Assembly (NCBI GenBank): GCA_010119095.1
Contig: SAAG01000006.1
Location: 1-35,044 of the forward strand
Direction: 5' to 3'
Source: Candidatus Altimarinota bacterium
GTDB lineage: Bacteria > Patescibacteriota > Gracilibacteria > BD1-5 > UBA6164
DNA: 35,044 bases
In this document: positions 3,338 to 20,647 of the stretch, piece by piece
Numbering within the stretch: position 1 is the stretch's first letter
Layout: every line of letters starts with the position of its first letter
Translations under genes and position numbers: made by a program
Notes under the pieces: generated by a model
Told to the model about the DNA's origin: nothing
The model's input: the letters and a program-made list of their open reading frames with translations, nothing else
The model's database searches: none

Positions 3338-6300
3338 TTATTGAGTTTTTTGAGTGAAGTTGTCCCAATCGATATCACTTACATATAAATCGGGTTTTTC
3401 AAAAATATTTTTTATTCTTTCAATCATAATAATTCATTTTCTTGCAATATTATAAGCTCAATTTGCATCAGCATTATAATCTAAACCTTGAAATCAATCT
3501 TTACTATGATAATTACAAGCTGGACAAATTATATAATCTAAAGCATTTTTTGTATCTGAATTTCTAAGTTGTAAAAGCAAGTTGAATTTTTTAGTTAGTT
3601 CTGAAAAAGAAAATCATTTTAAAACTTTAATTTGTTCATTTATATTTCATTTTAAATCTATATTCTCAAATATTCTTTTCAATTCCTCAGTTATATTTAT
3701 ATTATCAATCTCTTTTGTTAAAGTATTATATTTAAATCTTGAAAAATTACTATTTACTATAAAACTTGTTTTATTTGATTTTTGTTTAGTTTTTTTATCT
3801 TGTTCCATTTCATAAGAAAAAATAAACTTTTTTCCATCGAATTTTATATTTATTTTTTCAAAAGCCTTTATTTGTTTTTCTTTTGTGTCAGAATTTGAAA
3901 TATATATATTTTTTCTAAATCCACAACAAGGACAAGTTGTAGAAGTGTAATTTGCTCTTGTATAAAACATAATTCAAGATTGTTTATAGTTTGCTATATC
4001 TTGATAATCATTCACTTTTGGAACAAGTTGTAAAGCTTTTAAGTTTCATAAAACTTCATCATCTCACTTGTCTTTTTGTGTTAAATAATTCAGTTTTTTA
4101 GCAAGTGCTAGTTCTAATTTTTGATAAATTTGTTTTTCTATTTTTTGTCTTCATCTTTTAAAACCTTGATTTAAATCCTCAAAAACAATAACTGCATTAT
4201 GTTTTGTAATAAGTTCTGCTAATTTATTTATAACTTGAGAAATATAACCATTTTTTAATTCTTTGATATTTTCTATTTCTCACCAACTCACTCTTGCATC
4301 TTTTCTTGATAATTCTATTTTTTCAAGTTTTACAAGATAATTCACTCAATTTATCTCATTTAAACTTCAAATATCATAAATCTTTCAAGTTTTGTCAATA
4401 ACTGAATAATAAGCCAAATGTTTTTCTCATCTGTCAATTCAAATAATTTTTATATCTTCATTTTTGTTTAAATATTCATTTATCATTTTATTAAATCAAT
4501 AACTATCTCAAGTATTTGCATTTAAAGTTATTGATAAATGAAGCATTGTTTTATCTTGTCAATATCTTCTATGGTCTAAAACTTCTTTTCAAGATTTATC
4601 TAATTTAGTTTTTAATTTTTCAGTTTTTTCTCTAAAAAATATTTCTGCTCATCAGCTTAATTTTATCACAAGATTTTCAAGATTTTTTTTATCAAAAAGT
4701 AATTTGAAATATTTTGTATGAATATTTTCTTTACTTCAAGCTTTTTTAAACTCTGAAAAGTCTTTATTATAAATTTGAAATAAATATAAATCAGAAGATT
4801 TTACTTTTTCTTCAATAAAATCGGAATTTATTTTTGAGAATTGTAATTTATAAGTTTTCTTTTCTATATCATCATAAAAAGTAGGTAAATCAGTATAATC
4901 TGTATTTTTAATTTTCTCTAAATCAAATTCATTTTCATAAGTTGCTATAAATCATCTTTTATAACACTCTATAATTTTTTTTAATTTTTCAGGATCAAAT
5001 TTTTCTCACTTTTCTTTACTTTTTTGAAAAATATCAAATTCTTCTTTAATCTTTTTTAATTCAGGAGTGATTCAATATACTTCTTTTTTAGAGTTTGAAA
5101 AAGCAAATCTTGGTAATTGTCTATAAACATTATTTAATTGTTTATAATTCATCTTTTCATAAAAATCTCAGCTTTCATATTTATAATTATCAAGAATTTT
5201 ATTATTTTTAAAAACTCATAAATAAAATTTATCTTCTTTTTTCAAAATAATTCATAATCTCTCTTTTTCTTTGTCTTTATCCCAACCAGTTAAAAATTGA
5301 GAATTATTGAAATTTAGTTTAAATTTATCAGTTTGAATTTGTTTTTTTGTAACAAAATTTCTTACTAAATTATAATTTTTCCATATTTCAAAGTCTTCGT
5401 AATAAGCAAAAAAATCATTATAAAAATTGTTATCAGTTTCTAAATCCACTTTACTTTTTCCTTTTTCTAAAGCAAAATATTTAGTCATTTTATAAAGTGA
5501 TAAAACACTATCAAAATAATTTTTTATAGTTTCAACTTGAATTTCAGTTTTTTCAAATTTTTCTCAAAGTAATTTTTCAATTTTAGAAGTGTATAAATTT
5601 ATATCACTAATATTTTTTTGAAATTCATTAAAAAATATATGCAAGAAATTTTTATATAAACTTTCTCACTCTAAAACAATATTTTCTGAAATATAATTAG
5701 CTTTAAAAATATCTTCTAATTTTTCATATTTTATTTTCTCAAAAGCATTTTTTAACTCTTCAAAACTCACAAAATCTTTTATTTCTCATTTTTCAAAACC
5801 TTCTTTCAAGATATAATCCCAACTTGCAAAAAACTTATTTGAAATAGTATTTATTGAAACTTTTGATAAATAGATTTTATCAAGTTCAAAACTAGGATTA
5901 TTTTTTATAAAATTATTTATTATTTTTTCTGCTTCAATAATTTTAAATTTATTTTTTTCTAAACTATTTTTTACAAAATCAAGTAATTTTTCATCACTTT
6001 CTATCTCATCTATAAAAGCTATTTTTTCTTTGTCTGAAAGAATTTGTTTATAAAGTAGTTTAAATCTAGGAAATTTTATATCTTTTGAATTTGATTTATT
6101 TTGATTTTGTTTAAATAAATTTATTTTTTCATTTATTCATTGAATTTTATTTCAATTTTCAAGAGAATATCATCATAAAATTTTGTTATAATTATCAATT
6201 CAATCTTGAAGCAAACAAGAATTATAAAAATCTAATTCAAAAGCTTGTTTTTCTTCTTGTGAAAAATTTTGTGATATAAAATCAGAAAAATTATTTTGAA

Positions 6301-6934
6301 ACCTTTTAAAATCTTCTAAATTTTTTATAAAAGTTATAAGATTTTCATCAATTGCTCTTGTTGCAACTGCTCAAGCTCTTCAATCTTCAGAATAAAAGTT
6401 TTTTCTTGATTCTTTGAAATTTGAAAAATAAGTAAAAAATCTATCGAATTTTTTGAATAATTCTTTTTGTTCAGGATAAAATTCTCACATCAAATCTAAA
6501 ACTTCTTTTTCATTTAAAACATCAATTCATCATTTTTTAAAAAAACTATATTTTTGTTTCCATTCATTTCATTTTGATTCAAAAAAACTTACTAATTCTT
6601 TTTTTAGAATTTTAGAAGCTTTTTCAAAATCTTTTTGTAAAGTTTTATTTTTTTTATTTTCTGGAGTTTTATTTAGTTCAATATAGGAATTATAAAAATT
6701 ATCTATTTCATTTAAATATCATTTTTCTAAAGATTGTTTTACAAATTCTCTATGTAAAGAATCAAAGAAAACTTTAATTTTATTATAATTTTCTTCAACT
6801 TCTTTATCTTTTTGTATAACTCAATCTTTTTCAAGACTATTTAGAGTTTCTCAAACAGGCTTCAACTCAAACCTTAAAGTTTTACTTAATTCATAAAGAT
6901 TTGTAAAATCTTCAAAACTATTTTTTGATGTCAT
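3338..6934 (-). CDS. cas12a: CRISPR effector nuclease Cas12a (Cpf1), UGA-recoded
   Basis: A 1198-residue Cas12a, a little shorter than well-studied members (about 1230-1310). It opens with the family start [19 protein letters not shown] (WED-I). The RuvC domain is intact: D834 in IGIDRGEKHLAYY, E919 in [12 protein letters not shown] and D1156 in NADANGAYNIARKG. The Nuc-domain arginine is present in QLRNSDT. Four cysteines (TCPCCGF and CPACNYH) would bind zinc between the RuvC parts. It is guided by crRNA and cuts double-stranded DNA, and it should also process its own array. Many essential glycines, including DRGEK and DANGAYN, are UGA codons, so the gene is adapted to table 25 and would be shredded in a standard-code host. 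The ATG at 6934 lies at the family start. Confidence 0.96.
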
Positions 6935-15148: not shown

Positions 15149-15669
15149 TTAAAATGGATATCTTTGTAGAGAATCATAAATATAGTTTTGTTCTTTTATT
15201 GTTTTATTGTTTAAAGCATTTTCAAACAACTCACTTCAAAGTTTTTTTCTCAATAATCATATATCATAAATTGGTATTTTTGTTAAATCAGGAATTATTA
15301 AAATTAACTCATATAAAGTTTTTTTATACTCAGGTTCTCAAATCTCATTTTCTAAATTAACTAGTATATTTCTTAATACAGTTCAAAACTGCGATAACCA
15401 ATCAATATCACTCATTCAACTTGTTGTTAGAGCTTCTAAATAATCATAAGGATATTTTCTAGATAATTCTTGATGTAATTCTGAATCAAGATTTTTAAAA
15501 GGAAAGTTTTATTCCAAAGATAATATATCAAGTCTATTCATCTATTTTCAACTATGCTATTAATCTTTTCTGATATTTTTTCTCTAATTGTATCTCAATT
15601 AATTGTTTCTTGTTGTTGTTTTTGTAAGGATAATTCATATAATTGAACTAGGTTTAATCATCTACTCAT
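15149..15669 (-). pseudogene. Broken gene behind the Ile-type attenuator
   Basis: Two overlapping frames look like pieces of one gene. The first starts at ATG 15669 (MSRGLNLVQLYELSLQ, then INGDTIREKISEKINSIVENR) and, with UGA as glycine, drifts into unlikely sequence until TAG at 15436-15438. The second starts at an ATG at 15541 (MNRLDILSLE), meets an in-frame TAA at 15509-15511, then runs on sensibly (NFPFKNLDSELHQEL to DSLQRYPF) to TAA at 15149. The likely reading is a gene of about 170 residues hit by a frameshift near 15541 and a nonsense change at 15510. Two small genes joined by ATGA overlap are the alternative, but UGA is not a stop here. I do not recognise the product. Confidence 0.5.
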
Positions 15670-15691
15670 TTTAAAAATTGTTTTAAGCAAT

Positions 15692-15854
15692 AAAAAAACT
15701 CTCTTAGATTTCCTAAGAGAGTTTGGATTTTTTTGTATTACAAAATAGCTCTTAGGTTTTTATCTAGAAGGATAATAATAATAAAGCTAATTTGTGTTTG
15801 TGTAAACATATACTTTTGTTTAGTTATATTTATGTTCTAGATTATATTTAATTT

Positions 15855-15867
<13 letters not shown>
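15692..15867 (-). promoter_or_regulatory. Ile-type transcription attenuator with its promoter
   Basis: On the minus strand, in order: TTGACA (15867-15862) and TATAAT (15846-15841) with a 15-base spacer; a leader peptide start at 15809; segment 2, CCTAAGAG (15756-15749); and a terminator (stem 15724-15713 with 15707-15696, then a T-run). Segment 2 is exactly complementary to CTCTTAGG, the 5' arm of the terminator and its flank, so the two structures exclude each other. The -35 lies inside the last codons of leuA. This is the layout of enteric amino-acid attenuators. The controlled gene starts at 15669 and is broken. Confidence 0.75.
15738..15809 (-). CDS. Isoleucine-rich leader peptide
   Basis: A 23-residue open frame, MFTQTQISFIIIILLDKNLR, ending AIL and a TAA. 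It has a run ISFIIIILL with four consecutive Ile codons (ATT, ATT, ATT, ATC) placed immediately upstream of the first pairing segment. Ribosome stalling on these codons when charged Ile-tRNA is scarce would free CCTAAGAG to pair with the terminator arm. The role is inferred from layout; the codon run and pairing are seen directly. Confidence 0.75.
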   Translation of the reverse strand: MFTQTQISFIIIILLDKNLRAIL

Positions 15868-17576
<1,709 letters not shown>

Positions 17577-17600
17577 AAATAATTTATATTAAAATTTAAA

Positions 17601-17786
17601 AAACTCTCTTAGTTTCCTAAGAGAGTTTGTATAAAGTAATTGGTTTAAAATTAATTTACATTGAAAAGACTCTTAGGGTTTATTCCTAGAAGAAGAGTCA
17701 GAAGTAGTAAATTAGTTTTATTTATCATAATTATTTTAAAAAATTAAATAATTAAAGTGATTATATGTAAAATTTTAATTTGTCAA
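17601..17786 (-). promoter_or_regulatory. Leu-type transcription attenuator of leuA with its promoter
   Basis: On the minus strand: TTGACA (17786-17781) and TATAAT (17765-17760), 15 bases apart; leader ATG at 17728; segment 1 with CTTCTTCTAGG over the last Leu codons; segment 2, CCTAAGAG (17677-17670); and a perfect 12-bp terminator stem (17628-17617 with 17612-17601) followed by T's. Segment 1 can pair with segment 2 (one mismatch), and segment 2 with CTCTTAGG in the terminator region. leuA starts 25 bases past the stem. This gives a complete 1:2, 2:3, 3:4 switch. Confidence 0.85.
17651..17728 (-). CDS. leuL: Leucine-rich leader peptide of leuA
   Basis: A 25-residue open frame beginning MINKTNLLLLTLLLGINPKS and ending NVN before a TAA. 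It holds seven leucines in eight codons (TTA, CTA, CTT, CTG, ACT, CTT, CTT, CTA), covering four or five different Leu codons. The last ones overlap the first pairing segment, as in enteric leu leaders. A start-to-stop frame this biased, directly in front of a leucine-biosynthesis gene, is unlikely to be chance. Confidence 0.85.
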   Translation of the reverse strand: MINKTNLLLLTLLLGINPKSLFNVN

Positions 17787-17788
17787 AT

Positions 17789-18157
17789 TTATTTTTTATT
17801 AAAATCTAAGATATCTAATACTTTTGGTTTCATTTCTAAAACTATTCATCATACAGTTGGCTTAAATGTGTTATAACTAGTTCAAGTTCTAGTTTTTGAA
17901 AAACAAAAAATATCAAAATCTTCATCATTAAGAATTTTTTTGACTTCGTCAAATTTGCTTAGATCAATTCATTTAATGACATAGATTTTATTGTTTTTTG
18001 TATCGTTAATATAAATGAAATCAGCTCAATATTCTAATTTCTTGTGTTTATTTTCTTGATATTCTTGTATTTGGTCTTTACTACATATTCCATTTAATAT
18101 GGATGATAATTTATCAATTGATAAACTACTTATTGTAAATCAGTTATGTGCATTCAT
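17789..18157 (-). CDS. Unknown protein controlled by the Ile/Leu/Val-type attenuator
   Basis: A 122-residue soluble protein that I do not recognise. It starts MNAHNGFTISSLSIDKLSSIL, has a charged middle (DQIQEYQENKHKKLEYGAD), an FIYINDTKNNKIYVIKGID strand pair, and ends KPTVGGIVLEMKPKVLDIL. There is no signal peptide or membrane segment. It is preceded, 19 bases beyond the stem, by an attenuator whose leader peptide is packed with Leu, Ile and Val codons, so a role in branched-chain amino-acid supply or sensing is a fair inference, but nothing in the sequence itself names it. The leuA promoter -35 touches its stop codon. Confidence 0.7.
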
Positions 18158-18176
18158 AATAAAATAATTAATAAAT

Positions 18177-18373
18177 AAAAAAACTCTCTTTGGATTTCCC
18201 TAAGAGAGTTATAAAATTCGTAAAACTATTTAATTAATTTAATTCACGAAAAGTATCTCTTAGGTATTTTCCTAAAAGCACGACAATCACTAGAATTAAA
18301 TTAAATTTATTAAACATAAATATCTAATAATTAAATAGTAAATTTATATTATTTATAGTTTTAATATTGTCAA
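18177..18373 (-). promoter_or_regulatory. Ile/Leu/Val-type transcription attenuator with its promoter
   Basis: On the minus strand: TTGACA (18373-18368), a TAATAT -10 (18351-18346) with a 16-base spacer, leader ATG at 18317, segment 1 CTTTTAGG directly after the control codons, segment 2 CCTAAGAG (18264-18257), and a terminator stem (AACTCTCTT with AAGAGAGTT) followed by seven T's. Segments 1 and 2 pair along all eight positions, with one G-U. Segment 2 also pairs with CTCTTAGG in the terminator. It has the same switch design as the two attenuators to its left. Confidence 0.82.
18234..18317 (-). CDS. Branched-chain (Leu/Ile/Val) leader peptide
   Basis: A 27-residue frame starting MFNKFNLILVIVVLLGKYLR and ending FRELN before a TAA. 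The block LILVIVVLL holds nine consecutive branched-chain codons (four Leu, two Ile, three Val), resembling the multivalent ilv leaders of enteric bacteria. The block ends exactly where the first pairing segment begins. Confidence 0.8.
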   Translation of the reverse strand: MFNKFNLILVIVVLLGKYLRDTFRELN

Positions 18374-20352: not shown

Positions 20353-20475
20353 ATTTATTTTAAATTAGTAATATTTAATATATCAATATGTGTTGATATA
20401 ATGATAAGAGAATGCTTTATTAAGTGTTATAAATATATATAAAAGATTTTAATAACTATATATTTATTAATAAAA

Positions 20476-20647
20476 AAATCATTTTCTTTTTGAAAATGAT
20501 TAAATTTTTTAGTAATTTTTAAATACTGTTAAAATACCATTTTCAATAAATAGTTTTTTAACGGACAAGGTAATGCTAAAAATGTATTTTTCATAGATAA
20601 TTTAATTAGTATTGATTTTATTATATTTAAATTCTTTTTGTTTTCAA
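20476..20647 (-). promoter_or_regulatory. Possible Pro-type attenuator upstream of proB
   Basis: On the minus strand: TTGAAA (20647-20642), TATAAT (20625-20620) with a 16-base spacer, a leader frame from 20594 to 20529, and a perfect terminator stem (GAAAATGATT with its complement, 20477-20501) followed by T's, 120 bases before proB. The segment GAAAATGGT near the end of the leader can pair with CATTTTC in the terminator. The layout resembles the three branched-chain attenuators, but control codons are few. No other gene is seen in this 317-base interval, apart from a weak hairpin (20663-20697) at the lysS end. Confidence 0.45.
20529..20594 (-). CDS. Possible leader peptide of proB
   Basis: A 21-residue frame starting MKNTFLALPCPLKNYLLKMV and ending in F and a TAA. 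It contains Pro-Cys-Pro encoded CCT TGT CCG; CCG is rare in such an AT-rich genome. With only two prolines the case for proline-specific control is much weaker than for the branched-chain leaders. Confidence 0.4.
   Translation of the reverse strand: MKNTFLALPCPLKNYLLKMVF

Follow-up and report, generated by a model that had tools for sequence, protein, structure and literature searches.

The DNA directly upstream of leuA in Candidatus Altimarinota bacterium (contig SAAG01000006.1) very probably encodes a ribosome-mediated transcription attenuator responsive to charged leucyl-tRNA. The element is a member of a lineage-wide attenuator family in which the RNA scaffold is constant and the control codons are swapped. 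We analyzed a stretch of 35,044 nucleotides (here called the window), which is part of a 1.53-Mb draft genome in which UGA is read as glycine. The original prediction, that a leucine leader peptide controls leuA by attenuation, is supported at the level of sequence by the leader anatomy, folding, covariation, and the Leu leaders of relatives.

A leucine leader and competing RNA segments upstream of leuA

The locus combines a short Leu-rich leader open reading frame (ORF), an intrinsic terminator, and an antiterminator that is freed by a modelled ribosome stall. The span originally marked (17601-17786) runs from the −35-like box through the end of the terminator. The parts are as follows.

17760..17786, minus strand: promoter-like boxes TTGACA (17786..17781) and TATAAT (17765..17760) with a 15-nt spacer, read directly
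17651..17728, minus strand: Leu leader peptide ORF MINKTNLLLLTLLLGINPKSLFNVN, read directly and kept in genomes G081 and G082
17687..17710, minus strand: control codons 7 to 14 of the leader (TTA CTA CTT CTG ACT CTT CTT CTA), seven of the eight being Leu
17685..17697, minus strand: segment 1 (CTCTTCTTCTAGG), overlapping the last Leu codons, from the 1:2 fold
17670..17677, minus strand: segment 2 (CCTAAGAG), partner of segment 1 or 3, from folding and from 1:2 and 2:3 covariation
17616..17625, minus strand: segment 3 (CTCTCTTAGG), forming the antiterminator with segment 2 and the terminator with segment 4, from folding
17597..17628, minus strand: intrinsic terminator (segments 3:4 and a T run), with a 12-pair stem by scan
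15855..17576, minus strand: leuA, 2-isopropylmalate synthase type 2, 573 aa, with 42 TGA codons read as Gly (profile PRK03739)

Seven Leu codons in a run of eight do lie ahead of leuA, as had been noted. The leader MINKTNLLLLTLLLGINPKSLFNVN is the sole ATG ORF of 10 to 40 aa in the whole window with at least 7 Leu in 8 codons, while windows generated by a first-order Markov model contain such a run with a mean of 0.03 per window. The last Leu codons also overlap a competing segment, as originally described: CTTCTTCTAGG pairs with CCTAAGAG at 17677..17670. Between species, the leader as a whole is 83% identical, no more than leuA itself (80 to 85%), and we therefore did not use overall leader conservation as evidence.

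The predicted folding energies are −9.6 kcal/mol for the 1:2 pairing, −12.9 kcal/mol for 2:3, and −15.8 kcal/mol for 3:4, where segment 4 is CTAAGAGAG; CCTAAGAG pairs with CTCTTAGG, which lies in the terminator arm. The sequence CCTAAGAG occurs six times in the window (0.43 expected), and the copies are arranged as three sets. A terminator scan found the site at 17628..17601, and the region has four terminator-like sites versus 0.6 in shuffles. Identical promoter-like boxes with the identical 15-nt spacing lie upstream of the leader in G081 and G082. A promoter scan that used spacers of 16 to 18 nt did not list TTGACA/TATAAT at 17786..17760, and promoter-like sites are no commoner here than in shuffles, so the promoter call rests on conservation.

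In a stall scan, we masked the RNA under the ribosome codon by codon and truncated the transcript after segment 3. With the modelled ribosome placed at any of codons 7 to 13, eight of eight antiterminator pairs formed, compared with seven pairs at codon 14 (the last Leu) and four at codon 15; the Leu run thus ends where a stalled ribosome would cease to free segment 2. When the full-length RNA is folded at equilibrium, the terminator mostly wins over the antiterminator, even with a stalled ribosome included. Because equilibrium folding with segment 4 usually reverts to the terminator, the switch must depend on the order of synthesis, with the 2:3 antiterminator forming first, as in other attenuators.

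We infer promoter use, ribosome stalling, transcription-translation coupling, and a response of the attenuator to leucine. RNA polymerase would start ∼30 nt upstream of the leader, and a ribosome would translate the 25-codon leader behind it. When leucine is sufficient, the ribosome would clear the Leu run, segment 2 would be covered or closed by segment 1, and the 3:4 terminator would form, leaving leuA untranscribed. When leucine is scarce, the ribosome would stall on codons 7 to 14 and mask segment 1, so that segments 2 and 3 would pair before segment 4 exists; no terminator would form, and leuA would be transcribed.

Leucine leaders in relatives

A protein search found type 2 leuA in 5 of 353 genomes of the class and, among 380 genomes drawn from the phylum, in one, which is the genome under study (G000). 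A Leu-rich leader precedes all five of the type 2 leuA genes in the class: MINKTNLLLLTLLLG in G000 and G081, MTNKTNLLLLALLLLG in G082, MNSQQLLLSLLLLPIRRADSMC in G334, and MKIQVLNLLLLKLTDR in G317. The counterexample named with the original prediction, a relative with conserved leuA but no Leu-rich frame, did not occur. G334 and G317 belong to another family, have no in-frame TGA, and carry segments that differ in sequence; the G334 segments nevertheless have the same pairing logic as the leuA attenuator described here. Short upstream ORFs with at least 5 Leu in 8 codons are present at 18 of the 53 leuA-like (HMGL-like synthase) loci of the class; as controls, the reverse strand gave 1 such locus and shuffles gave 0.6.

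Some loci in other genomes have variant arrangements. G089 has tandem Leu leaders (MRNIFTISLLLLLGNT and MQNMNNTSLLLLLGKS; L077) upstream of an HMGL-like synthase gene. An Ile leader in G307 (MNKTAQNIIIAIIISSPHGE; L086:2908) lies upstream of a gene for a LeuA/citramalate-type synthase, which hints that this enzyme may be a citramalate synthase. In G097 and G094, Leu or Leu/Ile/Val leaders are followed by a small gene and then a gene for an M20/ArgE-DapE family deacylase (L020:1480 and L029:1480).

An attenuator family with other control codons

A covariance model built from seven genus elements has matches in 21 of 353 genomes. Outside the genus, the leader MRIVNITLAVLLLLLGNSLRGI of G108 precedes a small gene and then one for a LeuA-like synthase. 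Other control codons are found, likewise outside the genus, in an Ile leader upstream of ilvA (MISQMHNIIMIIIPFRHI; G088), a Thr leader upstream of thrS (MLALLVTTTTTTLY; G091), and a Phe/Tyr leader (MNILNITSPAVNFYFYFFTKT; G110) upstream of the gene for 2-amino-3,7-dideoxy-D-threo-hept-6-ulosonate (ADTH) synthase, an enzyme of the aromatic pathway. The thrS loci served as a prediction test of the attenuator family. Thr leaders (at least 4 Thr in 8 codons) are present at 16 of the 30 thrS loci of the family (L106-L135); the reverse strand has none at any of the 30. The typical thrS leader (LAQLVTTTT) is absent or decayed in the genus of the source organism.

Across 24 distinct elements, two-sided changes occur in 16 of 19 pairs of the 1:2 and 3:4 stems (0 of 500 shuffles as high), and for 2:3, 86% of cells are paired and the covariation score lies above all 500 shuffles, although these pooled statistics overstate independence, as many elements are related and were picked by likeness or Leu content. 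The antiterminator 2:3, which is outside the structure of the model, also exceeds all slid controls in both pairing and covariation score. The start of segment 2 mostly falls 5 to 14 nt past the last control codon in a set of 40 elements. The automatic test did not recover the 2:3 pairing in the G317 type 2 leuA element or in G316 and G110a, and it probably misplaced the pairing in G200 and G204. Four weak R1 matches (L030, L031, L032, and L035), with an unconvincing leader or gene, were left uncounted.

Alternative explanations

The hairpins might instead be ordinary terminators of the upstream genes, with the Leu-rich ORF arising by chance in A+T-rich DNA. Every hairpin does sit shortly past a gene end, and Leu codons are common (8.7% of residues across twelve larger genes of the window). 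However, a Leu run as dense as this one is unique in the window, far above chance expectation, the ORF is placed between the promoter-like boxes and the hairpin, and the Leu codons are kept in five of five class members. The antiterminator covaries, and the type of codon tracks gene function in several genes, all of which makes a chance origin highly improbable.

We give slightly less weight still to a leader RNA that senses leucine, tRNA, or protein directly, as a T-box, riboswitch, or protein-bound leader, with no ribosome involved. T-boxes govern such genes in Firmicutes, and the LEU element of actinobacterial leuA may bind protein (PMC1262725), but no Rfam family matched here at the gathering score and the matches at E ≤ 10 were at chance level. 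The scaffold also stays while the control codons vary. The frame of CCTAAGAG differs between Leu and Ile/ILV leaders, and so CCTAAGAG is conserved as RNA and the run as peptide. Similar leader C termini within the attenuator family (LR.VFV and PKS.F) might suggest that the leader acts at translation or that the nascent peptide stalls the ribosome in response to another signal, which we judge to be just as improbable as direct sensing. This likeness is explained by the conservation of segment 2 as RNA. Nearly all elements have a terminator and its T run, and the control codons track the amino acid of the gene.

The leuA gene is an orphan

The original prediction called the enzyme LeuA rather than a citramalate synthase. 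The leuA product scores 651.7 bits against PRK03739 (cut-off, 455), compared with 72 bits against the citramalate synthase profile (below the cut-off of 450). Its best solved relative is Mycobacterium tuberculosis LeuA (1SR9), and the active-site motifs LRDGNQ, HxHND, NGERxGN, and SGSHQDAI are conserved in the alignment with that structure. We take the active-site residues in these motifs to have the roles generally ascribed to them. The assignment as LeuA stands on this profile match (652 bits) and these motifs; the accompanying argument, that the amino acid of the leader fits the function of the gene, is less simple, since the remaining leucine pathway was not detected in the genus.

The leuA gene and its neighbors are open under code 25 only, and leuA is visible as one open frame because UGA encodes glycine, a point that the original prediction left out. 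Close relatives, judged by leuA, are Candidatus Gracilibacteria bacterium STD2_196 (a metagenome-assembled genome) and bacterium LH_M95. Contamination as the source of leuA was rejected, as the gene is UGA recoded, is common to three genus members, and, in G000 and G081 alike, has proB and the same cysK-like gene close by.

Searches for LeuB, LeuC, IlvD, and the PF01063 branched-chain aminotransferase found none in five genus genomes that are 91 to 99% complete. In control genomes, the same searches recovered the LeuC, LeuB, and IlvD families in 14 of 14 and the aminotransferase in 13 of 14. Recoding does not hide LeuC, since a UGA-recoded aconitase-family gene was detected in G121. The leuA gene is an orphan here, and a response to leucine therefore has no obvious metabolic pay-off; nor do Leu codons together with leuA prove leucine synthesis when LeuB, LeuC, IlvD, and the aminotransferase were not found.

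Among the class members, an aconitase-family (LeuC) gene is present beside a leuA-like gene in G316, G317, G319, G141, G143, and G121, while LeuC was not found despite a leuA-like gene in G334, G089, G119, G108, G217, G198, and G200, the last a single contig. In these seven genomes, the leuA-like gene comes with a Leu leader, a pattern that could be read as a traded metabolic step. The source bacterium is tiny and probably host dependent; it might make 2-isopropylmalate from a keto acid of a partner or host, whose LeuCD and LeuB would finish leucine, and the attenuator would read the returning leucine. We regard this scenario as unlikely, though less remote than the alternatives to attenuation considered above.

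Comparison with known systems

In Escherichia coli and Salmonella, leuL encodes a short leader peptide that contains a run of Leu and is followed by competing hairpins and an intrinsic terminator before leuA. The element described here shares this layout with leuL (RF00512, Leu_leader) but differs in its sequence and leader, in its solitary leuA without leuB and leuC, and in reading UGA as Gly. Neither the Rfam model RF00512 nor the T-box covariance model matched at the gathering score or at E ≤ 10. The leucine-rich Staphylococcus ilvD attenuator has a 26-aa leader with Ile and Leu codons, a downstream terminator, and an alternative structure (PMC5794164). It resembles the present element in having control codons in a leader, a terminator after the leader, and an alternative structure, but its sequence is unrelated, and it governs the ilv-leu operon jointly with CodY (PMC5794164). 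The actinobacterial LEU element likewise places a Leu-codon leader upstream of leuA; it has a candidate pseudoknot in which the Leu run pairs with the leuA Shine-Dalgarno sequence and the other attenuator parts are lacking (PMC1262725), whereas a terminator and an antiterminator are present here.

The mechanism is classical attenuation, apparently unreported in Gracilibacteria or Patescibacteria as judged from the open-access literature: our search, which covered open-access full text, turned up no account of leader-peptide attenuation in these groups, and we claim no priority. Few Patescibacteria are cultivable, and so the regulation of their genes has been little charted. Because its leader names the amino acid to which a gene answers, a codon-based switch is readable in the sequence itself, and it can therefore help to assign functions to unknown genes in these reduced genomes. 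The attenuator would also imply that transcription is coupled to translation in lineages where UGA encodes glycine. The same switch design appears across relatives with other codons, often upstream of a leuA without partner genes, and a leucine-controlled LeuA without the later enzymes raises the testable question of how these cells use 2-isopropylmalate.

Other attenuators and genes in the window

Three more leaders and one associated gene lie near leuA.

18181..18317, minus strand: paralogous attenuator with the Ile/Leu/Val (ILV) leader MFNKFNLILVIVVLLGKYLRDTFRELN and a terminator (R1 match 18175-18290, 108 bits)
17789..18157, minus strand: 122-aa gene behind the ILV attenuator, function unassigned (no family match)
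15696..15809, minus strand: paralogous attenuator with the Ile leader MFTQTQISFIIIILLDKNLRAIL and a terminator (R1 match 15690-15782, 82 bits)
20474..20594, minus strand: separate attenuator-like leader MKNTFLALPCPLKNYLLKMVF (Pro-Cys-Pro) with an antiterminator/terminator, before proB-cysK

The ILV leader is kept in three genus members (18317 on the minus strand here; L010:4752), and the gene that follows it varies: G000 and G082 have a 122- or 153-aa gene there, and G081 has a gene of the aspartate/glutamate racemase family. The homologue of the 122-aa gene in G082 is 52% identical and lies behind the same leader. An ASCH domain, suggested by a weak match of the homologue (E = 0.014), was not accepted as an assignment, and the predicted structure of the 122-aa gene product (pLDDT, 61.5) was too poor for use. 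The gene behind the Ile leader (15149-15690, minus strand) is split into two ORFs in different frames and is thus broken or misassembled. The two-amino-acid leader MKNTFLALPCPLKNYLLKMVF is fitting for a mixed Pro/Cys operon, and in G081 the same LPCP leader lies upstream of proC-proA-proB-cysK. Elsewhere in the window, 3338-6934 (minus strand) encodes a Cas12a-like protein with REC1, REC2, RuvC, and NUC domains under code 25, and ORFs at 788-2650, near this gene, are by their look candidates for Cas2, Cas1, and Cas4.
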